The notes under the pieces are model-generated. The model had not been told where the DNA came from and searched no databases. It worked only from the letters and a program-made list of their open reading frames with translations. From Sideroxydans lithotrophicus ES-1 (GTDB lineage: Bacteria > Pseudomonadota > Gammaproteobacteria > Burkholderiales > Gallionellaceae), in the NCBI RefSeq assembly GCF_000025705.1, contig NC_013959.1, positions 2,674,001 to 2,738,000 on the forward strand: a stretch of 64,000 nucleotides of DNA. The letters are read 5' to 3'. Below are positions 8,602 to 25,114 of the stretch, in pieces; the first letter of the stretch is position 1, and each line of letters starts with the position of its first letter. The position numbers were made by a program, and so were the translations under genes.

Positions 8602-8712
8602 ATGCCAATTGAACTATTAGTGCCGATTACAATTTTCCTTTTGGGTGTCGTGGTAGCAGTTTATCTCGGCGGGATGGGGATTGAGCGCATCGTTGAAGTA
8701 AACAAGAAGTAA
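8602..8712 (+). CDS. 36-residue single-helix membrane peptide
   Basis: ATG at 8602 behind a GGGAGAG ribosome site (8587-8593). The 36 residues begin MPIELLVPITIFLLGV, form one hydrophobic helix (about 5-23) and end in a charged tail IERIVEVNKK. It resembles the tiny accessory subunits (CcoQ/CcoH-like) of cbb3 oxidases in size and topology only. A strong terminator follows directly, so it may be its own short transcript. Similar peptides occur at 17814, 21054 and 21919 in the same island. Confidence 0.6.
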   Translation: MPIELLVPITIFLLGVVVAVYLGGMGIERIVEVNKK

Positions 8713-8735
8713 AAACACCTGTTTCGACTTACACT

Positions 8736-8786
8736 AAACATCAGAAAATTCTGGAAATTTCTGGATTTTTTCTGATGTTTTATTTT
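8736..8786 (+). terminator. Rho-independent terminator after the 36-residue peptide
   Basis: AAACATCAGAAAA (8736-8748) pairs with TTTTTTCTGATGTTT (8766-8780), followed by TATTTTG. It separates the peptide gene from the four-helix protein at 8864. Confidence 0.8.
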
Positions 8787-8863
8787 GCTAATTCGCGGTC
8801 AGACACCTAATCACTCAGATCTATGTCGTCCAAGGGCCCGTTTATGTACTTTAACATCCTACG

Positions 8864-9391
8864 ATGACCACCAACATACTGCATAAGCATCTTCTGAAAT
8901 TCCTGCTGCTTTCTGCCCTTTCGTTCTTTATTGGCACTATTCATGGCATGTTTCAGGTAATGCCCCCCGTTCGAGCATGGCTGGATTCTATTGGCAGTCC
9001 ATATGGCGGACCTGGTCACATGATTGACCCTTTGGCTCATGCACACATGAATCTGGTTGGAGGCGTAGTGTTATTGGCTATGTGCGTGACTTATTATCTA
9101 TTGCCGATATTTACGGGAAAAAATATATATTCCATAAAATTGGTGCAACACACCTTTTGGTGGGTCAGCATAGGCGTATATAGTTTTTACATAATACAAA
9201 TGGTCTTTGGCATCTGGGAAGGCATCTTAATCAGCTCCCCTGTTGAAATGTCGGCGGTACATCGGTTTTATGGTCCTGTCATGGCACTTTCAGGCACCAC
9301 GATGGCGATTGGCTTTTGTACTTATCTAGCCAACGTCATTTTGACCATTAAGTCCCCAGCAAGTGACTCAACCAATACTTCTGGCCATTAA
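8864..9391 (+). CDS. Stand-alone four-helix heme-copper-oxidase-like membrane protein (HxH motif)
   Basis: Protein of 175 residues with about four membrane helices. LAHAHMNLVGG (about residue 63) followed by a helix, ITYYLLP-like turn, YSIKLVQHTFWW and a further helix matches the last part of CcoN, where an HxH pair ligates the two b hemes. The CuB-binding helices are absent, so it cannot be an oxidase alone. A paralog lies at 23611 with the same HxHxN motif. Only this ATG is available because a stop lies 12 bases upstream; no good ribosome site is seen. The 3' end overlaps the convergent lipoprotein gene by 4 bp. It may be a heme b carrier, a partner subunit or a gas sensor. Confidence 0.65.
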   Translation: MTTNILHKHLLKFLLLSALSFFIGTIHGMFQVMPPVRAWLDSIGSPYGGPGHMIDPLAHAHMNLVGGVVLLAMCVTYYLLPIFTGKNIYSIKLVQHTFWWVSIGVYSFYIIQMVFGIWEGILISSPVEMSAVHRFYGPVMALSGTTMAIGFCTYLANVILTIKSPASDSTNTSGH

Positions 9392-9777
9392 TCCGCCGTC
9401 AGCTTAAGTGGGAAGCGCAGTATCGTTTCATCCGTACCGCGCTGAAGACGAACTTGTAGTACTGCAGTTTCGCCATCTCCCAAGTCTATAGCGCGGCGAT
9501 ACACTCCAATCAGCCCATCCTGGATTGCTTGCACCCAAGGCATTGCGGAGCTACCTCTTAGTGACACTATTAAGTCCTGAACGGGCCTGCCATGCACTCC
9601 TGTCGCGATCACCACTATCTCCGACATCCCGGCAACCGGCGGACTGGGGTGAGTTTCAATTCGCACATTCGTCTCTCCCCAATGCTGAGAAGGAATCAAA
9701 GCCTGTTCATTATCTTTGCCACAACCAGCAAGGCTAGTTAAAACTATCAATAGTGCCAAGGACGGGAATGTTTTCAT
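9388..9777 (-). CDS. FixH/YtkA-like periplasmic lipoprotein
   Basis: Protein of 129 residues with a lipoprotein signal (lipobox LAGC, Cys19). The rest is a small beta-rich domain (MSEIVVIATGVHGRPVQDLIVSLRG ... GVYRRAIDLGDGETAVLQVRL) of the YtkA/FixH kind, in which FixH assists cbb3 oxidase assembly. No membrane helix follows the lipobox, unlike classical FixH. It is the last gene of the minus-strand operon that also carries CcoG, which supports an assembly role. Confidence 0.6.
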   Translation of the reverse strand: MKTFPSLALLIVLTSLAGCGKDNEQALIPSQHWGETNVRIETHPSPPVAGMSEIVVIATGVHGRPVQDLIVSLRGSSAMPWVQAIQDGLIGVYRRAIDLGDGETAVLQVRLQRGTDETILRFPLKLTAD

Positions 9778-9813: not shown

Positions 9814-10242
9814 TTAATGCTGCCTATCATCTTCTGGTTCGTCTTGTTTCTCTTTATCGGAATCTAATCTGCCACCCGCAGAAGAGCCATACAAATGCAC
9901 CATGTAATATACGAACGCCGCTGCTGCCGCGATATACAGCAAAGAGCCCAGGAAACCCGGGTCCTTTATCCAGTCTGTCCACTTCACCACGACCCCGGGT
10001 CGCAATCCCCAGAATGGAAAACTGAGGCCAACACCTACCAGCAATACGATCACAACCACTGCCGTGAACCAATAAGGCACTTTCAGTTGCGATTCCGGTA
10101 TCTTCTCTACCAACTCCCAATCTTCCATCCCGCGTTTGTCCAGGCGCTCCTGGTCAGATGCATAGCCAAAATGATCTTCGCGAACCTCACCCCACTTAGA
10201 TGCATCTTTTGTCAATTCCAATTTTTTATCCGGCTGTTCCAT
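9814..10242 (-). CDS. CcoP-like membrane subunit without heme motif (short paralog)
   Basis: Protein of 142 residues with a charged N-terminal half, a helix at about 55-75 (YWFTAVVVIVLLVGVGL) ending in SFPFWGLRPG, a second helix near 98-118 and an acidic C-terminus. FPFWGLRPG is shared with FPLWGQRPT in the 204-residue protein at 17994, so the two are paralogs related to the membrane part of CcoP/FixP. There is no CxxCH. Ribosome site GGAGGATGCA precedes the ATG; it follows CcoG by 9 bp. Confidence 0.6.
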   Translation of the reverse strand: MEQPDKKLELTKDASKWGEVREDHFGYASDQERLDKRGMEDWELVEKIPESQLKVPYWFTAVVVIVLLVGVGLSFPFWGLRPGVVVKWTDWIKDPGFLGSLLYIAAAAAFVYYMVHLYGSSAGGRLDSDKEKQDEPEDDRQH

Positions 10243-10251
10243 TGCATCCTC

Positions 10252-11568
10252 CTATTCAACAAAATGCTGAAATTTAAAGCGCCCCGTCCATCCATCACTC
10301 GAGTGAACCACAACTGCCAATGGATAGAGGCCTCGCTGCAATTTCGGTGATACGGAAAGGAAAATTGATGTTCGGCCGACGGATTCCATGTTTACCTTTC
10401 GTCCGCTCAGAGTGAAATCATCCTGTGGCAAGCCCTCTACCGCAACATCCAATTCAGTTGGGCGATATCGTTTGCTCGAAATTTCAATACGATAATCCCG
10501 TTCCGATTGACTGTGTTTCGCTTCAGAAAATCCTACAGATATGTGGTAAGGCTGGTATGACCAGACGCCCCATGCAAACATTGCCATTCCCAATATGGCA
10601 AATGGGATGATCCAGCGGAACCTGGACAGCAAGAGCATCGAATTGTCGCGCAACCTGCGGATTTTTCCATTTGTGCGTTGACCCAACTCGAATTTCAATA
10701 GCCCTACGCCACCTTTCTTTGCGTGCAATGTATTGCATGCATCAATGCAGTCACCGCAATTTATGCAGCTGTCATACATCTCGGTCTTGCGGGGATCCAG
10801 CTCAATAAAGCAGGTTGTCACGCAGTAATTACATTTTTCACACTCATCAGCCCGGCTTGAATCATAAAGTACATGCAGGGTTTCTTTGGTTTTGAACGAA
10901 TGCTGCCAGACCTTGTACACGCAAGCAAAGCGGCACCAGAAATGCCGGAGCACTGCGATATCCAGAAGGATAATCAGCACCCATACGAAATATATCCAGT
11001 ACAAAGACCCGGCCAATCTTGTGTCATCTTTGAAACTCAGGAATGACCAGACCACGTCAGGCGGATAGAAATACAACAAAGGCAGCAACGCAAAAAACAT
11101 CGCCGCAACCAGAAACGACAGACCGAGCATCGTCCAGTTCAGCGCCTTGTTCTTCGCCGCCGCCACCTTGGGCGCCTCACCGGTCAGGCTGACTTCAGCA
11201 CGCTTGCCCAGCAGCTTGTGCGTCATGTAATTAGCCCATTCCGCAAGGCTATTCTGCGGACACGCCCATCCGCAGAATACCGTTCCGGCAATTGAATAAA
11301 GTGCCACCAATGAGGTGGCTATCATTATCCACAAGCCGGTAACCAGGAAAAAGTCTGCGAACCATATTTGCCAGCCCAGCACCACCAGTGCCCCATTTTC
11401 CGGATCGATCCTGAAGAGTCCGGAAACCGGAATCAGCACCAGCAATATCAGGATTACGATTTGCAGGGCACGCCTTCTCCAGCGGTAGCTGCTAGCTCCT
11501 TTTTTCATCCCCAGATCGACAATCTTGATCGGTATGCTGGATAGAGTTTTGTTAATGCCGGAAGACAT
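10252..11568 (-). CDS. ccoG: Cytochrome oxidase accessory protein CcoG (RdxA/FixG), polyferredoxin
   Basis: Membrane iron-sulfur protein of 438 residues, which in other bacteria supports copper delivery to cbb3 oxidases. It has about five membrane helices, the conserved FCGWACPQN motif (about 100), a two-cluster ferredoxin domain with CEKCNYCVTTC and CINCGDCIDAC (about 245-285), and a C-terminal Ig-like FixG domain (about 340-438). Ribosome site AAGGACCTC precedes ATG 11568. Its presence ties this operon to heme-copper oxidase assembly. A second, divergent CcoG lies at 44370. Confidence 0.9.
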   Translation of the reverse strand: MSSGINKTLSSIPIKIVDLGMKKGASSYRWRRRALQIVILILLVLIPVSGLFRIDPENGALVVLGWQIWFADFFLVTGLWIMIATSLVALYSIAGTVFCGWACPQNSLAEWANYMTHKLLGKRAEVSLTGEAPKVAAAKNKALNWTMLGLSFLVAAMFFALLPLLYFYPPDVVWSFLSFKDDTRLAGSLYWIYFVWVLIILLDIAVLRHFWCRFACVYKVWQHSFKTKETLHVLYDSSRADECEKCNYCVTTCFIELDPRKTEMYDSCINCGDCIDACNTLHAKKGGVGLLKFELGQRTNGKIRRLRDNSMLLLSRFRWIIPFAILGMAMFAWGVWSYQPYHISVGFSEAKHSQSERDYRIEISSKRYRPTELDVAVEGLPQDDFTLSGRKVNMESVGRTSIFLSVSPKLQRGLYPLAVVVHSSDGWTGRFKFQHFVE

Positions 11569-11597: not shown

Positions 11598-14237
11598 TCA
11601 GGGAGCTGTACTTGTTTCCGCATCCAGAGGCGATATTCCATGCAGGCGCAAACGATACGATTCAGCCAGCTTTACATTGCCTGCTGATTCCTCTAGATGC
11701 CAGAGTGAGCGTAGCGCATTCACATGATTCGGAAATATTTTCAGAACCCGCTGCAATGCATCTCCTTCGCTCAATCCCTGCTGGGTAGCCTGCATACGTG
11801 ACTGCATCATGCTATCAGCTAGCGCACTGGCAATCCAGTGGTCCTGGGGATTCGCCTGATAGGCCAACCAGATCAGATTGGTCGCCTTTTCCACGTCACC
11901 CTGAACGGATGTCGCCCATGCGCGTACCGTAAGTTCGGTTGAAACATAGGCACGACCGAATTTCCCCTTGTCACTCTCGCTTATTCCCAATATCTTCATC
12001 GCCTCTTCGGGGGCGGGGTGACGCTGCAACAGCCACAGCATCAATGAAGCCAAATTCACGCTTCCATCGTAGCGCGCTCGCGGCAATTTGAATTCGACAT
12101 ACGGAACCCACTCGTCTTGCAGCGGTCCTTTTGTTTCAACAATCGGGCCCCAATAACGTCCAAGCCATGTCCATGCACCTTCGCCACCAGTGCTCTGGCT
12201 TTGCAATTCTGCAGGCATCCTGCTCAAATTTTCCAGCAATGCTGATGCTCCGGCAAACTGCCCATTTGGACCAACCAATGCCAGGTGCATACCGTCCATG
12301 AATATCTGCGCATTGGGAAACACGCGCTGAAAACTGCGCATGACAACATTTAGTGATTGAATATCGAACTGGTTAAGCGCCAACCACTGGACAAATATGC
12401 CATCTGGATTAAGGTGGTCCCGAGCTCTTTTGAATTGCTGAACTGACAATAAAGAACCCATACCCGCCAAATCCGGGTGGAAAAGATCTCCCACTATGAC
12501 GTCATACTGGCGCTGCGTTGTGTTTAGGTAATGCCGGGCATCGTCCCTCTGGACCTGGAGTTGATCCATGATGTTGTCATTTACTGGCGCAAACCAATGT
12601 TTCGCAGCGTAAATCGAGCCTCTGGATAATTCAACCGCACTGCGAACAAGTCCAGGAAATGGCTTTGATCCTGCCGCCGATATTCCGGTGCCCAAGCCGA
12701 GAAATAATATGCTGCGCGGATTCCGATGCAGCAACAATGCCAGTCTGGCTTGATCCATCTGGATCTCAACTGCAGCTGGATCGCTGGAGGCATCCATCCG
12801 CTGCAAATCGCTTAGCAATACGCGCTGCCCATCCTGCTGTTGCACCACGTGCGTTTGGGCTATCGCATCTTCATAATGGTAAATATCCTGGCTGCCGGCT
12901 TCGATTTTAGGCATCAGCTCATGCACCGGCGGCATGCTGCGCAAATACCAGGCCGCTATCAGCATGCATGGGAATATCAACCAGGGCCAGCGTGGCTTGA
13001 CCCAGATTAGCCCCAGGCAGGCTATGGCAAGCCCTGCCAATGCAACCATGCCAAAACTGCCCACCACAGGTATCAAGACCAGACATCCGACGACAGCCCC
13101 GAAAGCCCCTCCCAGACAGTTTGCACCATAGAACCAGACTCCGCTTGGTTCAGCACTGCCGTAGCGATTTGCCAATATTGGCAGCCATGCTCCCAATGCC
13201 AAAGTGATGGGCAAGGTGAATACCCCGAGTATCAGTGCTTGTGAGGTGAGTGCACCAAAAAACGATTGGTAGTCGCTACGTTCCACCCATGCGGAAGTCG
13301 CTGGAAGTAGCCATAGGCCTATCAGAACGCCGATCCCGATGACTAGCGGTATCAGTTCTGTCATCGAGTGTTTCTTCAGACTTGGTAATAGCAGGCTGCC
13401 TAGCGCAATTCCGAGCAGGAATACAGCCAGAATCACCCCAAGGACATATTCGGTGCGAAGCATGACCATACCGTACAAACGAATCCAGCCGATCTCCAGC
13501 ATTATGCTTCCGGCTCCAATGCCGGCATATATCAGCAATGCTTGCAGCGGGGGCCGTTGCAATCTGATTTCCGACTTGCTTGTCGCACCGGCAGTGAGTC
13601 GTGCACGTTTTGATATGACAAGCGCTGCACTGCCTGCAATCAATCCCAAAGCGGCTACAATTCTTATTGAGTCAGTCCAACCTAACGCAGGCAAGCTCCA
13701 CAGGGGAAACAGCGCGCCGAAAACACCGCCTATCGTGTTGAAGCCATAGATTTTTGCTAGCGATATGGGCGTTTCTTCGACGAATTTGAGTATTAAAGCA
13801 AAGCCAACTCCCATTGCAAATGCGGGAATTACCAACAGACATAGCGCCTCAATTCCCTGCAACAGATACCATTGAACCAGCGATAGCTGAGCTGCCCAGC
13901 CCTCCATCCACCCGCTGGTAACATGCATCAGACCAGGCAACAGCAAAGCATATAGTGCAATTGCCATTTCCAGAATGGCGAAGATGTACAGCGGTTTCCC
14001 CCATCGTGGCGCCCACCGTGCGCCAGCCAGGCTTCCTGAACCCAGTCCGATCATATATGCCGTAACTGTCAGAACCACGCCGAATATGCTAACTCCAAAC
14101 TGCATGGACAACATGCGGGACCATAGCACCTCGAGTGCCAGACTCGTTGCACCCGATAGGCAATACACGATCACCACCGACCAGCAAGCACCGAAAGAAT
14201 TTCGGTGATTCTCACTAGGCAGGCTGACATGTGACAT
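11598..14237 (-). CDS. Fused membrane transporter-like/spermidine-synthase-like protein with TPR-like tail
   Basis: Protein of 879 residues. Residues 1-430 hold about 13 membrane helices of the fused MFS/spermidine synthase type (CLSGATSLALEVLWSRMLS). Residues 450-680 form a Rossmann methyltransferase-like domain with SAM-site-like LFLGLGTGIS, acidic VEL, DDARHYL and DVIVGDLFHPD. The C-terminal 130 residues look like helical TPR-type repeats (AWATSVQGDVEKATNLIWLAYQANP). True polyamine synthesis is doubtful: such fusions are poorly characterised. It sits inside the oxidase-assembly operon between a small membrane protein and ccoG, which is unexpected. Confidence 0.75.
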   Translation of the reverse strand: MSHVSLPSENHRNSFGACWSVVIVYCLSGATSLALEVLWSRMLSMQFGVSIFGVVLTVTAYMIGLGSGSLAGARWAPRWGKPLYIFAILEMAIALYALLLPGLMHVTSGWMEGWAAQLSLVQWYLLQGIEALCLLVIPAFAMGVGFALILKFVEETPISLAKIYGFNTIGGVFGALFPLWSLPALGWTDSIRIVAALGLIAGSAALVISKRARLTAGATSKSEIRLQRPPLQALLIYAGIGAGSIMLEIGWIRLYGMVMLRTEYVLGVILAVFLLGIALGSLLLPSLKKHSMTELIPLVIGIGVLIGLWLLPATSAWVERSDYQSFFGALTSQALILGVFTLPITLALGAWLPILANRYGSAEPSGVWFYGANCLGGAFGAVVGCLVLIPVVGSFGMVALAGLAIACLGLIWVKPRWPWLIFPCMLIAAWYLRSMPPVHELMPKIEAGSQDIYHYEDAIAQTHVVQQQDGQRVLLSDLQRMDASSDPAAVEIQMDQARLALLLHRNPRSILFLGLGTGISAAGSKPFPGLVRSAVELSRGSIYAAKHWFAPVNDNIMDQLQVQRDDARHYLNTTQRQYDVIVGDLFHPDLAGMGSLLSVQQFKRARDHLNPDGIFVQWLALNQFDIQSLNVVMRSFQRVFPNAQIFMDGMHLALVGPNGQFAGASALLENLSRMPAELQSQSTGGEGAWTWLGRYWGPIVETKGPLQDEWVPYVEFKLPRARYDGSVNLASLMLWLLQRHPAPEEAMKILGISESDKGKFGRAYVSTELTVRAWATSVQGDVEKATNLIWLAYQANPQDHWIASALADSMMQSRMQATQQGLSEGDALQRVLKIFPNHVNALRSLWHLEESAGNVKLAESYRLRLHGISPLDAETSTAP

Positions 14238-14335: not shown

Positions 14336-14716
14336 CTAGAATGGAAAGAACCATACGATTCCAACAACTGCATGAACTACTGCCAGTGTCATGCTGAGGC
14401 CAGCAAATATCATGTGCGCAGCAAATACCTGTTTTCCATACAGCCCCATTGCGATTCCCAGGCCGCCAGTGATCATTACCAAAGTAATCAGCACCACACC
14501 CAGCAAGAACATGATTCGCTGCTTGTCCTTGTCGGTGATCGCTTTTGCGCGCTCCGTATCCCTGTGCTGCTTGTTGAATTCCTGCAAGATCTGCGCTCCC
14601 TCGCCAGATTGGGAGCTTTCATCTGCTTGTGCAGCAGGTATGGTGCAAAACAACAGCATTGATATTGACAGAGCCGCTGCAAATAAGCGAAGAAAGGAAA
14701 TATTGGAAATTGTCAT
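14336..14716 (-). CDS. Secreted/membrane protein with signal peptide and two helices, unknown
   Basis: Protein of 126 residues from ATG 14716, chosen because it gives a clean signal peptide ending at AAQA; a longer start at 14794 would bury it. A charged periplasmic stretch (QEFNKQHRDTERAKAITDKDKQR) leads into two helices, the second with two histidines in AAHMIFAGLSMTLAVVHAVVG. The paired helices with histidines could hold a heme, but this is a guess. No family recognised. Confidence 0.55.
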   Translation of the reverse strand: MTISNISFLRLFAAALSISMLLFCTIPAAQADESSQSGEGAQILQEFNKQHRDTERAKAITDKDKQRIMFLLGVVLITLVMITGGLGIAMGLYGKQVFAAHMIFAGLSMTLAVVHAVVGIVWFFPF

Positions 14717-14741
14717 TGTAGTTTGCTGCTTTGAATTTGAT

Positions 14742-14984
14742 TTAATGATTGCGATCCGTCTCTGAACTATCGGAAGCATTCTCTCGACCCGCATTGCGCC
14801 ATGCCAAGATAACCATTAGCACGAATGGCGCGAACACACCCATCAGCAGAAATATAAATATATACCATGGCGTTGAAATAGTGACATGCGCGAATCTGTA
14901 ACTATCCACTTGCGCCTGCACGGATGATGTTCCAGCCATACCAAGAAACATCAATATTGCCCTTGCCCACATTTGATTCATCAT
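14742..14984 (-). CDS. Small membrane protein with signal sequence, unknown
   Basis: Protein of 80 residues: an N-terminal signal ending near VQAQ, a short periplasmic stretch, one helix (TPWYIFIFLLMGVFAPFVLMVILAW) and an acidic cytoplasmic tail. A GGGG ribosome site precedes the ATG. Lies between the SUMF1-like gene and the 126-residue protein in one operon. No family recognised. Confidence 0.6.
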   Translation of the reverse strand: MMNQMWARAILMFLGMAGTSSVQAQVDSYRFAHVTISTPWYIFIFLLMGVFAPFVLMVILAWRNAGRENASDSSETDRNH

Positions 14985-15002: not shown

Positions 15003-16061
15003 TTATTTTTCCGCGCTTGATGCACAGCGAAATCCGTAGAAATCCGAAGCATAGTTAGGCCACGAATAATCTCGATGGTAAGTGGCCGTAGAGAATGGGT
15101 CTCCTTTCCAGGAGCCCCCCCTTAATACTTTATAGTTTCTGTTGACCGCTATCTGCTCTGATAGTTTCATTGCTCGATCTTGCTCGTTCTCTACCCGCGC
15201 AATCTTCCCCTTGAAGACTTCTTTCTCTGCGTCAGTGCCTTTGTATGGCAGGAAATCATCCTCCACCCATTCATCGACATTGCCAGCCATGTCATAGACG
15301 CCGTACGGACTGACGCCTTTGTTATAGGTGTTTACATTCGTTGCCGAACCGACATTGTAGTAAGTGTTCAATCGAGCCGGATCCATTTCATTTCCCCACG
15401 GCCAACGTCTGCCATCAGTCCCTCGTGCCGCCTTTTCCCATTCAGCCTCAGTTGGCAACCGCTTACCTGCCCATTTTGCATAGGCCGATGCGTCATACCA
15501 GTTGACCATGGTCACTGGATATTGCAAAGCATCTGTCGGTATCTTCCCGTCTTTCCAGTCCAGGGGTGGCCGATGACCTGTTGCAGCGATAAATCTTGCA
15601 TACTGTGCATTGGTCACCAGATATTTGTCGATACGGAATGCTGGCAGTTCGACTACGTGCTGCGGATGCGAGGCTGCGTCGGCATTCTTGAGATTGGTAC
15701 CCATCAGGAATTTGCCTGCCGGAATGGTCACCATGCTATCCAGCTCTTGCCACTGCTCTTTGGTCAGCAATGACTCAGCCTCTGCCGCTGAATATCCGAC
15801 TGCTTCGTTTTTCCTTTTCTCATTTTCCTCATGCAAGGCTATATCTTCCCCTGCTGCGCGGATACGGGCAGATTCTTCCTTCAGATCATAAGTTGCCAAG
15901 GCGCGCATCTCGCCCATGCGTATCGAACCCAGTTTGACAACGTGCAAACTTCCGCCCACCACCACCAGCGTTATGCATGTGACGATGGTAGCTGTTAGAT
16001 ATCTCTTCTTTCGTTGCAAGTCCGCCGGATTTTGTTCGGCTTGTTTCTTCATAAAGGGCAT
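15003..16061 (-). CDS. Membrane-anchored SUMF1/FGE-fold protein lacking the FGE cysteines
   Basis: Protein of 352 residues. A single helix (about 20-42) anchors it, leaving a periplasmic domain. Residues 110-350 show the formylglycine-generating-enzyme (SUMF1) fold: IPAGKFLMGT, VTNAQYARF, PVTMVNWYDASAYAKWAGKRLPTEAEWE (in two parts), YDMAGNVDEWV and KVLRGGSW. The final segment STATYHRDYSWPNYASDFYGFRC lacks the cysteine pair used by true FGE, so sulfatase activation is unlikely. NirV-type SUMF1 proteins occur with denitrification genes; here the neighbours are cytochromes and CcoS/CcoG-like factors. The start overlaps the previous stop as TAATG. Confidence 0.85.
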   Translation of the reverse strand: MPFMKKQAEQNPADLQRKKRYLTATIVTCITLVVVGGSLHVVKLGSIRMGEMRALATYDLKEESARIRAAGEDIALHEENEKRKNEAVGYSAAEAESLLTKEQWQELDSMVTIPAGKFLMGTNLKNADAASHPQHVVELPAFRIDKYLVTNAQYARFIAATGHRPPLDWKDGKIPTDALQYPVTMVNWYDASAYAKWAGKRLPTEAEWEKAARGTDGRRWPWGNEMDPARLNTYYNVGSATNVNTYNKGVSPYGVYDMAGNVDEWVEDDFLPYKGTDAEKEVFKGKIARVENEQDRAMKLSEQIAVNRNYKVLRGGSWKGDPFSTATYHRDYSWPNYASDFYGFRCASSAEK

Positions 16062-16507
16062 TACGATTCCCTTTCAGTTGCAGGCCGCCTGTCTTCTTGC
16101 GAGACTTTTGCTGAGCGACCGTACACTCCCTTGATCATCACTTCGCCGAGAATGCCGCCCATAGCCGCAGATTCGATTGCAAGGATTACATACAAACCCC
16201 ACCAACCTACAGGGTTCAAAATGCTGCCATGCGGGATACCGGTGACATACGCTATTTCTGCGTAACTTATGCTTCGCACTATCAATGGCGGGAGATAGCA
16301 CAGCCATTTCCCACCCATACCGAAGATTCTGGTTACCAACAGGCCGGAAAGGAATGGGACCACAAACAGATCCACACCCCATGCAAAACTGAATGTGGAC
16401 AATCCAGAAAATAATTCTATTTTTACGCCAAGCAGCTTATCGGCAATATGAATAAATGCCACTCCCGCCAGTAGCGCCACCATGCCAGTAAGGTATTTGT
16501 GCCTCAT
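16061..16507 (-). CDS. Polytopic membrane protein of the oxidase island, unknown
   Basis: Protein of 148 residues with about four helices (for example YLTGMVALLAGVAFIHIADKL's first half and GWWGLYVILAIESAAMGGILGEV). Overlaps the upstream cytochrome gene by ATGA and the downstream SUMF1 gene by TAATG, so all three are co-translated. No Cys-heme motif. No family recognised; a structural membrane subunit is the simplest reading. Confidence 0.6.
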   Translation of the reverse strand: MRHKYLTGMVALLAGVAFIHIADKLLGVKIELFSGLSTFSFAWGVDLFVVPFLSGLLVTRIFGMGGKWLCYLPPLIVRSISYAEIAYVTGIPHGSILNPVGWWGLYVILAIESAAMGGILGEVMIKGVYGRSAKVSQEDRRPATERES

Positions 16508-16986: not shown

Positions 16987-17261
16987 GCCTTTAACTTATG
17001 GTCTTGCGCTTCTTGCGCCAGGAAACGATTGCGGCTCTCAATTTGAGCTTTAATCACTGTACGGCTCTTTGCAAATTCTTCAGGCGTCATTTTGTCCTGG
17101 TCTTTTTCATCAAAGAGAACGTATTTGATATCCTCATCGAATTGCTCGTTATTCATGCCCCAGCGTATCCAGTACACCACTGCCATGATAATCACCGCTC
17201 CGATGATCAGCCACAGGTAGATGGTCCAGCCATCCGGAAGATTTTCAATGAAGTTCGCCAT
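16983..17261 (-). CDS. CcoS/FixS-like small membrane protein
   Basis: Protein of 92 residues with one helix (YLWLIIGAVIIMAVVYWI) followed by WGMNNEQFDEDIKYVLFDEKD. CcoS proteins have the pattern helix-AVRSGQFDDLEGPAHRILFDDD, so this is a plausible divergent homolog carrying an extra C-terminal charged helix of about 35 residues. CcoS is needed for cofactor insertion into cbb3 oxidases. Overlaps the next cytochrome gene by ATGA. Confidence 0.55.
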   Translation of the reverse strand: MANFIENLPDGWTIYLWLIIGAVIIMAVVYWIRWGMNNEQFDEDIKYVLFDEKDQDKMTPEEFAKSRTVIKAQIESRNRFLAQEAQDHKLKA

Positions 17262-17283: not shown

Positions 17284-17496
17284 TCAGAAAAGGTAACCGC
17301 CCAGCATTTGTACCGCGCCCATCACTATCGCGGCGACCACGCCTACGATAATAGCTGAAAACATAAAACGCTCTCCCGTTCTCATTTTTTGTGGGCGGTT
17401 CTTGCTAAACATAAATGCTATGACAATCGCAGAGAACACCACTATGCCAATCAGCAAAAAAACGAATATCCACTCACTGAATTGCTGGCTACGCAT
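17284..17496 (-). CDS. Small two-helix membrane protein, unknown
   Basis: Protein of 70 residues with two helices (about 8-29 and 45-66) separated by a basic loop SKNRPQKMRTGER. First gene of the second minus-strand operon of the island (17.5-9.4 kb). No family recognised. Confidence 0.6.
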   Translation of the reverse strand: MRSQQFSEWIFVFLLIGIVVFSAIVIAFMFSKNRPQKMRTGERFMFSAIIVGVVAAIVMGAVQMLGGYLF

Positions 17497-17813: not shown

Positions 17814-17918
17814 TTACTTCTTTATCTTGTCAATAAAGAAACTGTAAAAAGTCGGGGCCAAAAGAGCCACGAGAATTATTCCAAAAAGCACGCCTGGGCC
17901 GTAGTCGATTTCTATCAT
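17814..17918 (-). CDS. 34-residue single-helix membrane peptide
   Basis: ATG at 17918 with ribosome site GGAGAAAAGA directly upstream, stop at 17814. The sequence begins MIEIDYGPGVLFGIILVALL, crosses the membrane once and ends in FIDKIKK. Size, topology and place after the CcoP-like gene suggest a CcoQ-like accessory subunit. It is too short for most gene callers. Confidence 0.6.
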   Translation of the reverse strand: MIEIDYGPGVLFGIILVALLAPTFYSFFIDKIKK

Positions 17919-17993: not shown

Positions 17994-18608
17994 TTAGTGA
18001 TGCTTGGGCTGCCAAGTTGATGGAGGCAATCTCTTGATCAGGATGATCACCATCGTGAAGAAATATATTACATAGAATATATCGATGGTGTAACCCTTGT
18101 CCCACCAAGGCTGCTTTCTTTCCGGCGTTCCGTCGGCTTTTAAATTGCCTTCAAAGTTTGCCATAACAACATGATCACCCACCACGTTGTACTCTTCCAA
18201 GTCAGCGCCTTTGGCTTCCAGAGCTTCGATTTCCGGCTTGATGAGGCGCAGGTCGTTCATTGTCAAAGGGTGACGCTCTAGCAGAGCATCATATTTACCC
18301 CCAACATTCATCTGAACGATCTTCTTCATCGCAGCTTCGTCATCCTGAATAGCCATGACTTCAGGCGTATTCATTGCCTTGACATAACCCGCATAGATAG
18401 CCGCTGTCGGGCGCTGTCCCCACAATGGGAATGTGATCGCAAATGCGGTCAACACGGTCAGCGCAACCAGCAATACCACCGGCATGGGCATACGATGATT
18501 ATCTTCCGTTATTCCGCCGAGGTCCTCTTTCTCCCACAGCGCTTTGTCTGCCTCATTCGTCGCCGCATCAACCATCGTGACTAAGGGACTATTAAAATTC
18601 CATGACAT
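17994..18608 (-). CDS. CcoP-like oxidase subunit without CxxCH
   Basis: Protein of 204 residues in the position of CcoP, after CcoN- and CcoO-like genes. The N-terminus (EDLGGITEDNHRMPMPVVLL) and the first helix ending in FPLWGQRPT recall the membrane part of CcoP, where EYDGIxExNNPLPRWW leads into the helix. Instead of two c-type heme domains there is a soluble stretch of about 100 residues with no Cys at all, then a second helix (YVIYFFTMVIILI) and a basic tail. Electron entry must therefore use other cytochromes. A shorter paralog lies at 9814. Confidence 0.7.
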   Translation of the reverse strand: MSWNFNSPLVTMVDAATNEADKALWEKEDLGGITEDNHRMPMPVVLLVALTVLTAFAITFPLWGQRPTAAIYAGYVKAMNTPEVMAIQDDEAAMKKIVQMNVGGKYDALLERHPLTMNDLRLIKPEIEALEAKGADLEEYNVVGDHVVMANFEGNLKADGTPERKQPWWDKGYTIDIFYVIYFFTMVIILIKRLPPSTWQPKHH

Positions 18609-18622: not shown

Positions 18623-19579
18623 TTACTTAAGACTCAACATGAAGTCGATCAGGCTGCGGATATCGGAATCGCTCGCATAGCTAGGAACCTCCGGCGGATT
18701 CACACTCTTGCCTTCACGGTAATCGTTGTAATCAGCACGCCATTTGTCATAGTCGATCTTCTTGCCCGAAGCATCCTTCTCGCCCCACAGGTAGTCAAAA
18801 CGCGGCATGATGGAATGCGGCTGAACCAGGCGCGGATTGAAGAAGTGCATCATCATCCACTCTTTGGAAGAGTTGCGCGATCCTACATGCAGCAAGTCCG
18901 GAGCCTTGCGGTCAGAACCGAATGCAGTTGGCGATTCACCGTTGAAGTCACCCAGCATCGGTGGTGCGCCAAAGACTTGCCAGTCCTGCGTTTCTTCTGG
19001 AAGCAGTGTATGACACCACCAGCAGCCTTCACGCACGAACATCGTCTTGCCCTTACCAGCCTCAGAGATGTCTTCATCCTTGGATACACGCATCACATCA
19101 GCAGGAGTCCAGCCCTTGGTTGTAGTCAGGTCTTCAATGTAATCCAGTTCCTTCCCATTGAAAGATCCCTTGTTCAAGGCAAAGACCGCGCCCTGATCCT
19201 TCTTGGCATCTGTGATATGCCCCTGCTCGACGCTCAACTCCTGTACGCCTTCACCCAGAATGCGAGGATGCAGGATACCCGCCGGGAACGGCGTTCCCGG
19301 TTGGTACACGTACACAGACATTGCTGCCGGCAAAGGCTTGCCCGATTTCGGATCGACTCTCAGAGTGATCTCATCCGGCTTGTTTTTCCCCTGCAGAAAC
19401 GGGTCGTCCAGGTTGAAGCCGGTCTCATGTCCAACGGACAATTGCTTGGCAAGTGCGATTTGCGTCGATGCCACGCTGGCGATATTGATACTTGGCCACA
19501 ACAATGTAATACACATCGAGCCGGCCAGCGCACCAGCGAATAGCCTCGATCCGATCTTATACTCCCTAAATCCAGCCAT
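18623..19579 (-). CDS. CcoO-like mono-heme cytochrome c subunit with large insertion
   Basis: Protein of 318 residues against about 200 for typical CcoO. One N-terminal helix (about 12-35) precedes the heme domain with CWWCH (Cys186-His190), KAPDLLHVGSR, FNPRLVQPHSIMPRFDYLW with probable axial Met258, and a C-terminal DIRSLIDFMLSL helix. These blocks follow CcoO order closely (VREGCxxCH, GPDLxRVGGR, NPRxVxPxSxMP). The stretch of about 120 residues between helix and heme (40-170) is extra and has no recognised motif. Lies directly after the CcoN-like gene. Confidence 0.85.
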   Translation of the reverse strand: MAGFREYKIGSRLFAGALAGSMCITLLWPSINIASVASTQIALAKQLSVGHETGFNLDDPFLQGKNKPDEITLRVDPKSGKPLPAAMSVYVYQPGTPFPAGILHPRILGEGVQELSVEQGHITDAKKDQGAVFALNKGSFNGKELDYIEDLTTTKGWTPADVMRVSKDEDISEAGKGKTMFVREGCWWCHTLLPEETQDWQVFGAPPMLGDFNGESPTAFGSDRKAPDLLHVGSRNSSKEWMMMHFFNPRLVQPHSIMPRFDYLWGEKDASGKKIDYDKWRADYNDYREGKSVNPPEVPSYASDSDIRSLIDFMLSLK

Positions 19580-19612: not shown

Positions 19613-21019
19613 TTAGCGCTCGTATCCCAGTTCATGAGGCATACGACCCTCAGGAACAACGGTTCCTTTACGCGCTGTCATCCACATGTTGTACAGCCAC
19701 AGTATGTTGCCCACGAACACCAAGGTACCGCCGATCCAGCGGGCGATCATGTATGGGTGCTCAGCAATTACCACGTCGATGTACGGAACTTCGTAGATCT
19801 TGCCTGCGCCTTGAATCAGGCCGGCAATGGTCATGGAAACCCAGTAGATGGTGAAGCCGATCAACAGCAGCCAGAAATGCATATTGGCCAGTGTCAGGGA
19901 GTAAAGTTTGCGCTTCATGATGGTCTGCAGACCCAGATAAACCGCAGCAGACTCCAGGAATGTCGAGAAACCAAGCAATGCGAGGTGCGCGTGAGCCACG
20001 ATCCAGCCCGTACCATGGATATACCAGTTAATCGCACGGGTTTGCTGGAAGCCGCCTTGCATGTTCAATGGAATAGCCATCAAGCAGCCCGTAATGGTGA
20101 AGCGAACTTCGATGTTCTCGACGAACATGTACCATTTACCCTTCATCGTCAGCATGATGTTCGAAACGAATGCGATGGCAGGCACCAGAATCAGCACACC
20201 TTCAACCGAGGCAAACGATTTCAACCACTCAGGCAGCGGAGCGGACATCAGATGGTGAGCAGCAGGTGTCGAATAGAACACAACCACGGACCAGAAGTGC
20301 AAGTGGCCGATACGGTGTGAGTACAGCGGATTGCCGGTAACTTTCGGAATGGTGTAGTAAGCGATCGCAGCAGCCACCGGAGTGATCCAGAGACCCAGAA
20401 CGTTGTGCGCGAACCACCAAGTCAGATATGCCTCGGTCAGACCAGTCAAGTGGAAGAACTCGGGAGAGTTACCCACCAGGAACACGATGATCACCATGAA
20501 AACCGCTGCCGCAAAGAACCAGTTGGTTGTGTAGATACCCTGCGTGCGGCGATTCAGGATCGTCATCCAGACGTTGGTTGCAAGAGGAATAAACACAAAG
20601 AAGGCCAGATACAAGTCAACCGGCCACGGGAAGTCAGAGTATTCGCGACCGGATGTGATCCCCGCCCACAAAACCGTCAGACCAAGCGTCAGCCCCAGGT
20701 TCCAGAACAGGCAATTCCACAAACCGAGCTTCTCAGACCACAGCTTGGTATTTCCGAGCGCTGGCGTGATGTACATCATGGCCATCGCGAACGCCATTGA
20801 GATCCAACCGAAAATAACGGCCATCACGTGCACCTGACGCATATGACCGAAGGCGAAATAGATATTTCCAGTCACAAAGTCCGGGAACGCAAGCTTGGCA
20901 GCATTGAACGAACCCAGTCCGGTACCGATGACGAACCAGATAATTGAAGAAAATCCGAAGAACACCGCCGCCGAACCGGCCGGTATGTCTTCGTTCTTGG
21001 CAAACAGATATTTCAACAT
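19613..21019 (-). CDS. ccoN: cbb3-type heme-copper oxidase catalytic subunit (CcoN-like)
   Basis: Protein of 468 residues from ATG 21019 (ribosome site GGGGGAGAAGC), about 12 helices. His64 (RQVHVMAVIF) and His345 fit the low-spin heme b ligands, His343 (AHAH) heme b3, and His205 (AHNV), His255 and His256 (AAHHL) CuB. Tyr249 (FYSTPAAHH) fits the cross-linked active-site tyrosine. These sit two residues from the Pseudomonas stutzeri CcoN numbers (60, 207, 251, 257, 258, 345, 347), so the core is complete. The tyrosine argues for oxygen reduction rather than NO reduction. Sequence elsewhere is clearly divergent from classical CcoN. It would act in the inner membrane as terminal oxidase. Confidence 0.88.
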   Translation of the reverse strand: MLKYLFAKNEDIPAGSAAVFFGFSSIIWFVIGTGLGSFNAAKLAFPDFVTGNIYFAFGHMRQVHVMAVIFGWISMAFAMAMMYITPALGNTKLWSEKLGLWNCLFWNLGLTLGLTVLWAGITSGREYSDFPWPVDLYLAFFVFIPLATNVWMTILNRRTQGIYTTNWFFAAAVFMVIIVFLVGNSPEFFHLTGLTEAYLTWWFAHNVLGLWITPVAAAIAYYTIPKVTGNPLYSHRIGHLHFWSVVVFYSTPAAHHLMSAPLPEWLKSFASVEGVLILVPAIAFVSNIMLTMKGKWYMFVENIEVRFTITGCLMAIPLNMQGGFQQTRAINWYIHGTGWIVAHAHLALLGFSTFLESAAVYLGLQTIMKRKLYSLTLANMHFWLLLIGFTIYWVSMTIAGLIQGAGKIYEVPYIDVVIAEHPYMIARWIGGTLVFVGNILWLYNMWMTARKGTVVPEGRMPHELGYER

Positions 21020-21053: not shown

Positions 21054-21164
21054 TTAGTGACGATCACCACCATCGCTGTCTTCATGTGGGACAAGTATGT
21101 ACCACGATAGCAACATGCTCGAAAACGCCAACAGCACCCCCAGTGATCCCGCAATCAAAGCCAT
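21054..21164 (-). CDS. 36-residue single-helix membrane peptide
   Basis: ATG at 21164 with a G-rich ribosome site, stop at 21054. One hydrophobic helix (MALIAGSLGVLLAFSSMLLS, then WYI) is followed by a polar tail rich in Asp and His (HEDSDGGDRH). It lies immediately upstream of the CcoN-like gene in the same operon, where a small subunit would be expected. Too short for most gene callers. Confidence 0.6.
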   Translation of the reverse strand: MALIAGSLGVLLAFSSMLLSWYILVPHEDSDGGDRH

Positions 21165-21224: not shown

Positions 21225-21506
21225 TCAGGCAGCGCCAGTCTCAAGCTTGTAATGACGATTCAAGCCTACGTAGAGAATTCCACAGAAAGCAATTCCGAAT
21301 ACGATCATCGCCCAATCAATAAACCCGGTAAAAGTCGACGGATCATAAGCAGTCCAAGCCGCACCGCCCCAGTTTGCAAAACCCCCACGCCCCATCAGAC
21401 ACATCAAAGCCGCACCAAACACGCTGCCATTCCCCATTCCCGTCAACATCCCGCTTACGAGAATTAGCCAGATGGATAGAGATTTCGTCTCGTTCTTTGT
21501 ACTCAT
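21225..21506 (-). CDS. Small membrane protein heading the oxidase core operon
   Basis: Protein of 93 residues from ATG 21506 (G-run ribosome site); a start at 21536 would add an unlikely hydrophobic leader. Two helices (about 10-38 with Gly-rich GSVFGAALMCLMGRGG, and 62-80) are separated by an aromatic loop FANWGGAAWTAYDPSTF. First gene of the minus-strand operon that continues with the 36-residue peptide, CcoN, CcoO and CcoP-like genes. No family recognised. Confidence 0.6.
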   Translation of the reverse strand: MSTKNETKSLSIWLILVSGMLTGMGNGSVFGAALMCLMGRGGFANWGGAAWTAYDPSTFTGFIDWAMIVFGIAFCGILYVGLNRHYKLETGAA

Positions 21507-21918: not shown

Positions 21919-22023
21919 ATGCTTGAACCAGATACAACAACTGCCGAAGTTATTTATATGTACGTTGGCATATTCGTGTTTTTATTCGGCTTGGCTTTTA
22001 TCGTTTTGAAAAAACATTCCTGA
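21919..22023 (+). CDS. 34-residue single-helix membrane peptide
   Basis: ATG at 21919 behind AAGGAGAAACAA, a strong ribosome site; stop at 22021-22023. The peptide starts MLEPDTTTAEVIYMYVGIFV, has one helix and ends in VLKKHS. It is the first gene of the rightward cytochrome operon and mirrors the 36-residue peptide at 8602 in size, topology and upstream repeats. Confidence 0.65.
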   Translation: MLEPDTTTAEVIYMYVGIFVFLFGLAFIVLKKHS

Positions 22024-22105
22024 AATGTAACTTGCGGTACAGGGGATGAATTGGTTTTGGCCTGCAGCAAGTGTGGGTATTTAATAATCTAGGGGGGAGG
22101 AGCAC

Positions 22106-22885
22106 ATGCGTATGTTATCGAAATTGGCAATGGCGTGCTGGGGTGCGGTCGCCATGCTGGCTTTTTCAGGAGCGAGTTTTGCTGAAGCTGGTGGAGTCAC
22201 CGTTAATGTAACAAATGGTAAGAACATTTACGAAAATGGCAAACCAGGTGTCAATGGCCAGCCGGACGTTCCTGCATGTGCCGTATGTCATGGCGACAAG
22301 GCAATGGGCAATGACGGGATGGGCGCCCCAAGATTGGCCAATATCGGATACGTATATATCGTCAAGCAGCTGACGAACTTCGCTGAAGACAAGCGCATGG
22401 ACGTAACAATGATGCAGATGAACGGCATCGCAAAATCATTGACCGAACAGGATCGTCGCGACCTGGCTGCATATGAGAACAGCTTCCCGCATCAAACCGA
22501 ACTTTCCGACCTCAAACAACTTAAGGCCGATGGCACAAAAGTTGGTGAGATATACAAGGGCGAGAAGCTGGTTCAATATGGCGAAGAAGGCAGAATTTCC
22601 GCATGCGTAACCTGCCATGGTTATAATGGTCGTGGTGCCGATCCCGTTTATCCCAAGATCGGTGAGCAGAAATATGTATACTTGGTCAATCAGCTGACGC
22701 ACTGGCGCGATGCTTCCAGAACAAATGATCCAATGGGTCAAATGCGCGCAATTGCAAAGAACCTGACTGACGACGACATACAAAACGTTGCAGCCTACTT
22801 GTCGCAAGCACCCGACAGCTCTGCAGGGGACGGCATGCAAATTGGCAACCAGACAGTTTTGAAAAATATTAAAGTCGTAAAGTAA
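22106..22885 (+). CDS. Periplasmic diheme cytochrome c, c4 type
   Basis: Protein of 259 residues with a signal peptide (cleavage near SFAEA) and two cytochrome c domains carrying CAVCH (about 57-61) and CVTCH (about 171-175). Each domain ends in an AxNLTxxDxxxxAAYL-type helix and has a probable Met ligand (MQMNGIAK, MGQMRAIAK). Cytochrome c4 is a known electron donor to cbb3 oxidases, which fits the neighbouring oxidase with no heme-bearing CcoP. Ribosome site GGGGGAGGAGC precedes ATG 22106. A terminator follows. Confidence 0.88.
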   Translation: MRMLSKLAMACWGAVAMLAFSGASFAEAGGVTVNVTNGKNIYENGKPGVNGQPDVPACAVCHGDKAMGNDGMGAPRLANIGYVYIVKQLTNFAEDKRMDVTMMQMNGIAKSLTEQDRRDLAAYENSFPHQTELSDLKQLKADGTKVGEIYKGEKLVQYGEEGRISACVTCHGYNGRGADPVYPKIGEQKYVYLVNQLTHWRDASRTNDPMGQMRAIAKNLTDDDIQNVAAYLSQAPDSSAGDGMQIGNQTVLKNIKVVK

Positions 22886-22945
22886 GCATTCTGTTGTAAT
22901 TTGATTCTTTCAGCGTCAGAAATCCTGGCGCTGAAAACCAAAGGG

Positions 22946-22978
22946 GTACTGATCGTCATTGATCAGTACTTTTTATTT
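22946..22978 (+). terminator. Rho-independent terminator after cytochrome c4
   Basis: GTACTGATC and GATCAGTAC flank the loop GTCATT and are followed by TTTTTATTTT. A weaker stem TTTCAGCG/CGCTGAAA lies just before it. Expression of the genes from 23040 on must come from read-through or a local promoter. Confidence 0.85.
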
Positions 22979-23039
22979 TGAATTTTCGTAAAGCATTGCG
23001 TCGCATATTCATTTCATACAGCGGTAGGATTGGAGATAA

Positions 23040-23627
23040 ATGAAAAATGGCATGAAAAAAGGAGAAAAGATCCTTTTTGGCTTCATTGGATTTCTTGTGG
23101 TCGTTACCGTCATCAACTTTACCGTGCTCGAGTCGATCAGGCGGCATTCTGCCAGACCGATGTTTCCAATCCTGACGCATTTCGAATTCACCCAGGAAGG
23201 CAAACAGGGTTACGAGATATATCAGCACAGTGAATGCTACACCTGTCACCGGGCCGTCGGCAGCGGTACCAGCATGGGCGTGAGCCTGGACGGGCTTGGC
23301 TCCAAGCATGATGTCAATTACTTTTACAATTTCCTGAAAACGCCGGAAGCGGTGTATGGCGCCAAAACCATGGATCACGGCGCTCCACCCAAGGATGCCG
23401 CATATGTATCTGCTCTTCCGGATTCGGACTTGCGTGCGATGGCAGTATTCTTGTCTGAGCTGAAGGCTGATCAAGGATCGTCTTCGTCTTTCGAGCCGCC
23501 CCAGGGTGATTCGAGTTTTATTGATTCTATGGTTGATATGTGGACGCCAGACGGCTGGAGGACACAGTTCAAGGATATTCGCGATTGGATGAAATCAAAA
23601 GAGGAGCAACATGAAGGAAAGCATTGA
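23040..23627 (+). CDS. Membrane-anchored mono-heme cytochrome c (paralog of the 16504 gene)
   Basis: Protein of 195 residues: one N-terminal helix (ILFGFIGFLVVVTVINF), a class I heme c domain with CYTCH (about 66-70), DGLG and SALPDSDLRAMAVFLSEL, then a C-terminal extension of about 55 residues rich in Ser, Asp and Trp. Domain order and N-terminal GEK motif match the 160-residue cytochrome at 16504. It overlaps the following four-helix gene by 17 bp, so the two proteins are probably made together as a cytochrome b/c pair. Confidence 0.85.
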   Translation: MKNGMKKGEKILFGFIGFLVVVTVINFTVLESIRRHSARPMFPILTHFEFTQEGKQGYEIYQHSECYTCHRAVGSGTSMGVSLDGLGSKHDVNYFYNFLKTPEAVYGAKTMDHGAPPKDAAYVSALPDSDLRAMAVFLSELKADQGSSSSFEPPQGDSSFIDSMVDMWTPDGWRTQFKDIRDWMKSKEEQHEGKH

Positions 23628-24129
23628 ACACAGCGCAGCTGAGCGCGAAGATTTTACCCGCTACGTTTTATGGTTCGTCTATGCCTGCATCATATACAGC
23701 ATCATCGGCTTTTCCTGGGGCGCGATCATGGGTGGGGTTCCGGCTTTCCGGTATTTTGTGGATTACAGCGCGCACGGTCGTTTGATCACTCTGGCACATG
23801 GACACATCAACCTGCTGGGATGGGTCGAGATGGCGATCTTCGCCGCTTTGTACTACGTCGTGCCAACGGTTTCCCGCCGTCAGATATACAGCCTGCGCCT
23901 GGTGAAGATCCATTTCTGGATGCATAACTTCGGCCTGATCGGCATGGTAGTCTTTTTCCTTGCAGCCGGTCTGATCGGCGGCCTCAGCACAGGCGACAAT
24001 ACGGAAAGCGTAGTCAAGCATTTGATGGCCTTCGTCGGCATATTCGGGATGCTGGTGCTCACGGCCAATATCATCTGGGGCTACAACCTCTACAAGACGA
24101 CCAAGGCCGGGTGGCAAAAGAAGGCATGA
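23611..24129 (+). CDS. Stand-alone four-helix heme-copper-oxidase-like membrane protein (HxH motif)
   Basis: Protein of 172 residues with about four helices. LAHGHINLLGWVEMAIFAALYYVVP, split here as the HxH helix and its continuation, then RRQIYSLRLVKIHFWMHNFG closely follow the end of CcoN (HxHAGALGW, YxxP, YSxxLVxIHFWLH). Only this C-terminal third is present, so the CuB site is missing. A paralog lies at 8864. Located between a membrane cytochrome c and a thioredoxin-like lipoprotein with overlapping ends. It could carry one or two b hemes and pass electrons from the adjacent cytochrome c. Confidence 0.72.
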   Translation: MKESIEHSAAEREDFTRYVLWFVYACIIYSIIGFSWGAIMGGVPAFRYFVDYSAHGRLITLAHGHINLLGWVEMAIFAALYYVVPTVSRRQIYSLRLVKIHFWMHNFGLIGMVVFFLAAGLIGGLSTGDNTESVVKHLMAFVGIFGMLVLTANIIWGYNLYKTTKAGWQKKA

Positions 24130-24614
24130 AGATGCGGAAGTTCCTGTCGATATGCTTCGGGATAGCGCTGTTAAGCGGTTGCGAACAGCATCTGTCAGCC
24201 GGCTTTGAAGTTGGCATGAAGGCACCGAGTCTGCCTACCAAAACCTTGGCCGACGGAGATGGGAACTTCAGCAAAGTCACAACATACCGCCAGCCCGATT
24301 CCCGCATGTACCAATATTCCGTTGACAAGGCACTGTTGATGGGAAAACCGATCGTGCTGGAGTTCGCCACGCCCGGTCATTGCACCAATTGCGACCAGCA
24401 GCTGCAAATGCTGAAAGGTGTCATGGATGAATATCAGGACCGGATGATATTCATCCACATTGACCAATATGCCAATCCCCAGGCATATAAAGCCTACAGG
24501 GTCATGGGTGACCCGTGGACCTTCATCATCGACAAACACGGTGTCGTTCAATTCGAACAGGCCGGAAGGATGTTGCTTGGCGAGATGAACAGTGCGATAC
24601 AGCATGTCTTGTAG
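24126..24614 (+). CDS. Thioredoxin-fold lipoprotein (ResA/SCO-like)
   Basis: Protein of 162 residues from the ATG at 24126, which overlaps the previous stop as ATGA. A lipobox LLSGC gives a lipidated Cys; the mature domain has the redox motif CTNC in PGHCTNCDQQL (about 90) and the cis-Pro region GDPWTFIIDKHG. The CxxC is of thioredoxin type rather than the SCO CxxxC copper motif. A role in reducing heme-c or copper-site cysteines during assembly of the adjacent complex is inferred from context. Confidence 0.75.
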   Translation: MKMRKFLSICFGIALLSGCEQHLSAGFEVGMKAPSLPTKTLADGDGNFSKVTTYRQPDSRMYQYSVDKALLMGKPIVLEFATPGHCTNCDQQLQMLKGVMDEYQDRMIFIHIDQYANPQAYKAYRVMGDPWTFIIDKHGVVQFEQAGRMLLGEMNSAIQHVL

Positions 24615-24652
24615 GGCGGGCAGCAAATCGACAAGAATATGGCAGGAAAGTT

Positions 24653-25114
24653 ATGACAGATAAGATGCAATTCGATCTGGTACAGGATCGTAAAGGGATG
24701 TTGTGGGATCTGATGCTTTATGTTCCAACGGTGGTTGCGCTTGCATCGATAGCAGCAAGTTTCTGGTATGGCGATGACCACAATATGGGTTATTTGTTTT
24801 TCTTCCTGACCTGCTTCTTCTTTATCGCCGGATTCAATCGGATATTCAAGACCAGATTGATGCTTTTGCCTTCCGCACCGGTAACTCTCAAGATAGGCGA
24901 CCAAACTCTCGGTTTGATCCAGAAGAACGGGGAGCAAGTGAATCTGGTAAAGGAGCTGCGCTACTACGCCGATTACTCGGGGAAATCCTTTGGTATTACC
25001 GGCCTGGATGGCGGCGGCAAACGTTTGCAGTTCGTATTCCACAAAGGGCAGTTTCCGACAGCCGAAAAATTCGACTCCGTGCAAAAGATATTCAAGACCC
25101 AGCTCGGCAATTAA
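24653..25114 (+). CDS. Two-helix membrane protein, unknown
   Basis: Protein of 153 residues from ATG 24653 (ribosome site AGGAAAG). Two adjacent helices (about 15-35 and 42-60) and a soluble beta-rich C-terminal half (VTLKIGDQTLGLIQKNGEQ..., KRLQFVFHKGQFP), resembling a PH-like domain. Last gene of the rightward cytochrome operon. No family recognised with confidence. Confidence 0.6.
   Translation: MTDKMQFDLVQDRKGMLWDLMLYVPTVVALASIAASFWYGDDHNMGYLFFFLTCFFFIAGFNRIFKTRLMLLPSAPVTLKIGDQTLGLIQKNGEQVNLVKELRYYADYSGKSFGITGLDGGGKRLQFVFHKGQFPTAEKFDSVQKIFKTQLGN

Follow-up and report, generated by a model that had tools for sequence, protein, structure and literature searches.

The 64,000-nucleotide stretch of the Sideroxydans lithotrophicus ES-1 genome analysed here (contig NC_013959.1, positions 2,674,001 to 2,738,000; hereafter the window) carries at positions 8602-25114 an island of respiratory genes that probably encodes a working, O2-reducing oxidase of the C-family (cbb3-like), the likely main terminal oxidase of lithotrophs using high-potential electron donors. 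Two observations carry this reading: the gene set and the CcoN ligands are conserved among relatives, and no other full-length heme-copper oxidase subunit I was found by a PF00115 search in 28 of 45 island genomes (10/24 in one genome set and 18/21 in another). From these patterns we infer O2 reduction, the electron route, the subunit membership and the roles of the accessory proteins. Judged by their sequences, the island genes are real and belong together, forming a conserved variant of the cbb3 family with many parts, and every gene listed in an earlier reading of the same DNA (the original prediction) is present.

The catalytic core and its electron supply

The catalytic subunit CcoN (19613-21019, minus strand) comprises 468 amino acids when read from the ATG at 21019, most likely its start. 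It was predicted to retain all expected ligands and the active-site Tyr, and this was borne out: the protein matches the COX1 Pfam family at 3.7e-76, and all six His ligands of the hemes and CuB as well as the helix-VII Tyr are invariant in 102/102 aligned rows, which represent 95 distinct sequences. Equally invariant (102/102) are a Tyr, a Ser and an Asn at K-channel-like positions, which we take to be the K-channel residues. Position 323 (Pseudomonas numbering), a Glu in 11/11 canonical CcoN sequences, is Gln in 102/102 island sequences and in 2/2 fused ones. Identity to ordinary CcoN is 28-33%, and the best match among solved structures is the cbb3 CcoN 3mk7 (1.8e-62). In a tree of 37 rows, the 19 island sequences grouped together (support 100/98), next to the canonical and the fused CcoN sequences but away from NOR-like rows, which places island CcoN, on sequence grounds, in its own clade inside the C-family. 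The CcoN of genome G075 (60% identical) joined this group weakly (83/53), and the tree program flagged long branches.

The neighbouring CcoO-like cytochrome c (18623-19579, minus strand) matches the FixO Pfam family (3.6e-17) and has a single CXXCH motif in 109/109 orthologs. Both traits of the C-family, the CcoN His ligands with the helix-VII Tyr and a monoheme CcoO, are present; the scores of ccoN (222.9 bits; cut-off 583.15) and ccoO (64.2 bits; cut-off 200.65) lie below the equivalog thresholds for the canonical proteins. In comparison with CcoNOP of P. stutzeri (3mk7), the CcoN ligands, helix-VII Tyr, K-channel-like residues and monoheme CcoO are common to both, whereas the island has no diheme CcoP gene, a longer N-terminal part of CcoO, Gln in place of Glu323, and additionally two CcoN-tail proteins, cytochromes, a SUMF1-fold protein and peptides. 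An ordinary ccoNOP cluster is present elsewhere in the ES-1 genome, near 415 kb. As a side observation, the canonical CcoN of one congener (G024:C1:349417-350768) is split across two frames, through either disruption of the gene or faulty assembly.

No gene for a membrane diheme CcoP was found in the island. The sole diheme protein there is a Cyc1-like cytochrome of the c4 type (22106-22885, plus strand) that matches the ccoP model weakly (43 bits; cut-off 179.95) and is related to cytochrome c-552 (PDB 1h1o) and cytochrome c4 (PDB 1etp). A 204-amino-acid heme-free membrane protein with an FPxWGxRP motif (17994-18608, minus strand) had been labelled CcoP-like, but comparison with one canonical CcoP sequence gave this label no support (hhalign probability 1.1); on the same comparison we rejected the idea that the heme-free proteins are CcoP. 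The AlphaFold model of the 204-amino-acid protein has a mean predicted local distance difference test (pLDDT) score of 65, and a plasmid search with this protein gave no match.

We suggest that electrons from Fe(II), nitrite or perhaps cathodes would reach the diheme c4 cytochrome, the likely electron donor to the oxidase, and pass to the membrane-anchored monoheme cytochromes cytA and cytB, which may replace the missing diheme CcoP as the point of electron entry. From there, they would flow via the heme c of CcoO and heme b of CcoN to the heme b3-CuB centre, with proton uptake through the retained K-channel-like residues of CcoN. The heme-free FPxWGxRP proteins, the two-helix protein mp103, the CcoN tails and the small peptides could be membrane subunits packed around CcoN, and assembly might involve CcoG, a thioredoxin-like lipoprotein and perhaps the SUMF1-fold protein. 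Because CcoP is apparently missing and about twenty partners are conserved, the oxygen affinity and pumping values of ordinary cbb3 enzymes may not apply.

Paralogous pairs and stand-alone CcoN tails

The original prediction had proposed an internally duplicated second complex from three pairs of paralogs. The pairs themselves hold. Specifically, the single-heme membrane cytochromes cytA (16504-16986, minus strand; a single CXXCH in 108/108 orthologs) and cytB (23040-23627, plus strand) match each other at 4e-12 in BLASTP and with an hhalign probability of 100; the 204-amino-acid protein shares its N-terminal part with a heme-free protein of 142 amino acids (9814-10242, minus strand; hhalign probability 90, E 1.4e-6 over 57 columns); and tail1 (8864-9391, plus strand) and tail2 (23611-24129, plus strand) are paralogous by alignment. 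Beyond these pairs, we found no direct evidence of a second complex.

As predicted, the tails are stand-alone CcoN-tail proteins, their matches being limited to the C-terminal part of COX1, where they align only with CcoN helices IX-XII. Both carry an HxH pair that aligns with the heme b3 and heme b ligands in helix X (H59/H61 of tail1 in 13/13 sequences; the tail2 pair in 80/80). The predicted model of tail2 (pLDDT 91.8) has CcoN chains as its best PDB matches, with 3mk7 at the top and template-modelling scores of 0.78-0.80 of the query. Two tails were found in 44/45 island genomes (24/24 in one set and 20/21 in the other, four second tails of the 21-genome set scoring below the family cut-off), and in 0/17 control genomes. 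Second-tail matches cross stops in G282 of the 24-genome set and G350 of the 21-genome set. Both tails were recovered even where they lie on separate contigs, as in G432 and G168. Tail1 was found in only 5/41 of the 21-kb loci, but a second tail was found genome-wide. The tails should be incapable of reducing O2 alone, because they have neither the CuB helices nor the helix-II His.

These proteins bear on the question of whether the island encodes two complexes, namely the oxidase and a second heme-b module composed of the tails, cytB, the 142-amino-acid paralog and His-bearing small proteins such as the membrane protein mp152 (14336-14794, minus strand), serving for example uphill electron transfer. 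The three paralog pairs, the retention of both heme His in the tails and two conserved His of mp152 spaced 14 residues apart (H127 and H141, each in ≥ 95% of 92 rows) speak for such a module. However, the tails lack the helices and the helix-II His mentioned above, their heme binding is a prediction, and the one tail of G075, which stands beside oxidase genes, fits a subunit of a single complex equally well; we therefore regard a two-complex arrangement as unlikely. Slightly less likely again would be a new architecture in which a cbb3-like oxidase is joined in one supercomplex to a second heme-b membrane unit made up of a pair of 'half-CcoN' subunits; electrons arriving from high-potential cytochrome c could then be split between O2 and an uphill path driven by the proton-motive force.

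Conserved partners and distribution of the island

The guanine + cytosine content of the window is 0.47-0.51 between 4 and 24 kb, with values of 0.56-0.61 past 24 kb. Counts out of 41 refer to loci with full flanks among the best 80 of 236 CcoN relatives from a scan of named records. A minus-strand run from 21506 to 9388, with intergenic spacings of -53 to 98 bases and a single exception of 317, holds in this order mp103 (21225-21506; TGMGNGSVFG motif), a 36-amino-acid peptide (21054-21164), ccoN, ccoO, the 204-amino-acid protein, a 34-amino-acid single-helix peptide (17814-17918; 40/41), a 70-amino-acid membrane protein (17284-17496; 39/41), mp92 (16983-17261), cytA, the membrane protein mp148 (16061-16507; 38/41), the membrane-anchored SUMF1-fold protein (15003-16061; 39/41), the membrane proteins mp80 (14742-14984; 39/41) and mp152 (39/41), a fused MFS/spermidine-synthase-like protein (11598-14237; NF037959, 8.7e-14), the CcoG-like ferredoxin (10252-11568; 39/41), the 142-amino-acid protein (38/41) and the small lipoprotein-like lipo129 (9388-9777; 23/41). 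On the plus strand from 21919 to 25114 follow another 34-amino-acid single-helix peptide (21919-22023; 15/41), the diheme c4 cytochrome (38/41), cytB (37/41), tail2 (29/41), a thioredoxin-like CxxC lipoprotein (24111-24614; AhpC-TSA/thioredoxin Pfam match; 29/41) and the membrane protein mp150 (24641-25114; 29/41). The plus strand from 8602 to 9391 carries the 36-amino-acid single-helix peptide pepA36 (8602-8712; 4/34 and 5/41 loci) and the adjoining tail1.

A search with CcoN at E ≤ 1e-80 found relatives in 32/369 genomes of the class and in 42/398 genomes of a draw from the phylum, both counts including the genome of ES-1. They span 18 family labels, of which two are represented solely by a 61% relative and by fragments. 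Within the genus, 4/25 genomes (ES-1 included, and some of the 25 incomplete) have island CcoN at 96-100% identity. The best 80 of the 236 named-record relatives include Sideroxydans, Gallionella, Ferrovum myxofaciens, nine Candidatus Nitrotoga records and many uncultured organisms. Synteny was also seen in 34 further loci, some incomplete and six of them contigs of the named loci, and most of the gene set is present in four loci of a different class, which is probably Zetaproteobacteria.

Six genes (ccoN, ccoO, cytA, mp92, mp103 and that of the 204-amino-acid protein) are present in 41/41 full-flank loci, eleven more in 37-40/41 and nine in 5-29/41, these low counts being due at least partly to flank length. 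Genome-wide, a profile of the 204-amino-acid protein matched 35/35 genomes with island CcoN (G075 weakly, 9e-5) and 0/41 genomes without it (76 genomes), and mp103 was found in 33/35 and 0/41 respectively, missed in G075 and in G500, where the contig ends; these counts ignore kinship. That the neighbours are unrelated respiratory genes merely sharing an island with an ordinary cbb3 core of CcoN and CcoO is improbable: the patchiness of pepA36 (5/41), tail1 (5/41), lipo129 (23/41) and the neighbouring GT502 (24/41), and the two loci L116 and L119, whose gene order differs and whose flanks gave no match for SUMF1, CcoG, mp80, mp152 or the spermidine-synthase-like gene, would fit that explanation, but the 17 genes retained in at least 37/41 loci, even where the order is altered (L116, L119 and L139), the 204-amino-acid protein's genome-wide restriction and the recovery of two tails even when these sit on different contigs argue against it. 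The original prediction was to be given up if the accessory genes did not accompany this CcoN elsewhere; since they co-occur with it in other genomes, it stands on this point.

Several accessory proteins had been named more specifically. The CcoG-like factor is present, but its TIGR02745 score of 121.6 bits is below the cut-off of 316.7. For the membrane protein mp92, which has an NEQFDEDIKY motif, the term CcoS-like expresses a resemblance, with no Pfam match at E ≤ 0.01. The membrane-anchored SUMF1-fold protein was confirmed (FGE-sulfatase, 1.7e-56). Formylglycine-generating enzymes (FGE) have two catalytic Cys near the C-terminus; in the island protein C346 is the only conserved Cys in that part and C29 is conserved in the N-terminal part, and a working formylglycine enzyme appears unlikely. 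A search of the open-access literature returned no paper joining cbb3 with SUMF1, or formylglycine with cbb3 and iron-oxidizing. The thioredoxin-like lipoprotein is likely to be an assembly factor.

The claim of at least four peptides under 40 amino acids was also sustained (8602-8712, 17814-17918, 21054-21164 and 21919-22023). The single-helix membrane peptide of frame 21054-21164, small enough for gene callers to overlook, has a match in 115/115 loci (E up to 0.006), always on the ccoN strand. Five of these loci duplicate others, leaving 110 distinct ones, and the peptide lies directly upstream of ccoN in 114/115 (109/110 distinct), being ∼9.5 kb off in L139.

Electron donors and earlier descriptions

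It has long been a gap in knowledge how iron and nitrite oxidisers hand high-potential electrons on to O2. In all six Candidatus Nitrotoga genomes searched, whose completeness is unstated, no full-length heme-copper oxidase other than island CcoN was found; cytochrome bd was not found in five of the six (14 genomes were searched, three of which have bd). Such strains allow a direct test. The predicted oxidase of Nitrotoga fabula is a cbb3 (Kitzinger 2018).

For iron, a divergent sister run in G075 (L073, G075:C157, 404-10855) unites the oxidase core with a cyc2-like gene on a single strand. It begins with the cyc2-like gene, a diheme cytochrome c, a heme-free protein, a second diheme and a monoheme cytochrome c, and the tail; continues with an mp103-like gene (weak, and missed by the mp103 profile), ccoN, a short ccoO, a heme-free FPWG protein (weak in the 204-amino-acid profile) and a 70-amino-acid-like protein; and ends with two cytA/cytB-type cytochromes flanking an mp92-like gene, and thioredoxin-like and mp80-like proteins. 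The matches come from BLAST against that single locus, which makes the E-values lenient. This arrangement suggests a core gene set and links this kind of terminal oxidase with an iron oxidase. The rus operon of Acidithiobacillus ferrooxidans has the order cyc2-cyc1-aa3; it resembles the G075 run in uniting cyc2, cytochromes c and an oxidase, which is of the A-type there and of the C-type in G075. In the ES-1 genome we observed three clustered cyc2-like genes near 264-269 kb, as described previously (Slit_0263-0265; Emerson 2013, PMC3770913). Across genomes the link is looser: Cyc2 was found in 24/35 island genomes and 18/41 island-free genomes (14 of these 18 being congeners), and outside the genus in 21/32 and 4/27 respectively (Fisher 1.5e-4, kinship uncorrected), many matches spanning only the N-terminal part.

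Several points weigh against the proposed main terminal oxidase. No Cyc2 match was found in 11/35 island genomes, while Cyc2 is present in 14/14 of the island-free congeners tested; because of this, the island is neither required for nor confined to Cyc2-based iron oxidation, and iron oxidation as its only role, which we also considered, is unsupported given Cyc2 in 18/41 island-free genomes. The five partners unmatched in L116 and L119 count here as well. Nitrospina uses a fused cbb3 and two pelagic Zetaproteobacteria strains an aa3 oxidase instead, so that not all such lithotrophs rely on the island enzyme. Two cbb3 clusters of ES-1, termed proximal and distal, fall in different subtrees and differ in subunit composition, and ccoN/ccoO of the distal cluster rose on thiosulfate rather than iron (Zhou 2022), which matters if the island is the distal cluster. 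Finally, Mariprofundus PV-1 was credited with ccoNOP, CcoP included (Singer 2011), which matters if the same cluster is meant.

The statement that no oxidase of this composition had been described holds, within the literature searched, in that the parts were not previously defined as an oxidase, but the cluster was partly described (Emerson 2013; Zhou 2022). Twenty genes of conserved order and unknown function, some for heme proteins, are common to ES-1 and PV-1, 14 of them also occurring in Leptospirillum (Emerson 2013, PMC3770913); this suite is probably the island cluster, which it resembles in organism, heme proteins and order, differing in not being tied to an oxidase in the passages compared. 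The island was probably known before as a gene suite, and later papers name it cbb3. As far as our searches show, what is new is that the suite is defined as a single conserved oxidase of many parts, together with its composition and distribution. Two further clusters resemble the island. In Ferrovum JA12, cytochromes c are encoded alongside oxidase subunits I and II, and subunit III is missing (PMC4725956); in Ca. Tenderia the Cyc1 region is syntenic with Mariprofundus and complex IV-2 is highly expressed (PMC5371394). For both, tails, peptides and SUMF1 are not described in the passages compared.

Two further observations concern the surroundings of these genes. The MFS/spermidine-synthase-like fusion (11598-14237, minus strand) is retained in 39/41 full-flank loci. 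Beside the island, the plus strand at 6656-8354 encodes the 502-amino-acid multi-helix membrane protein GT502 and a 65-amino-acid partner, which have no Pfam match and occur in 24/41 and 21/41 loci respectively.

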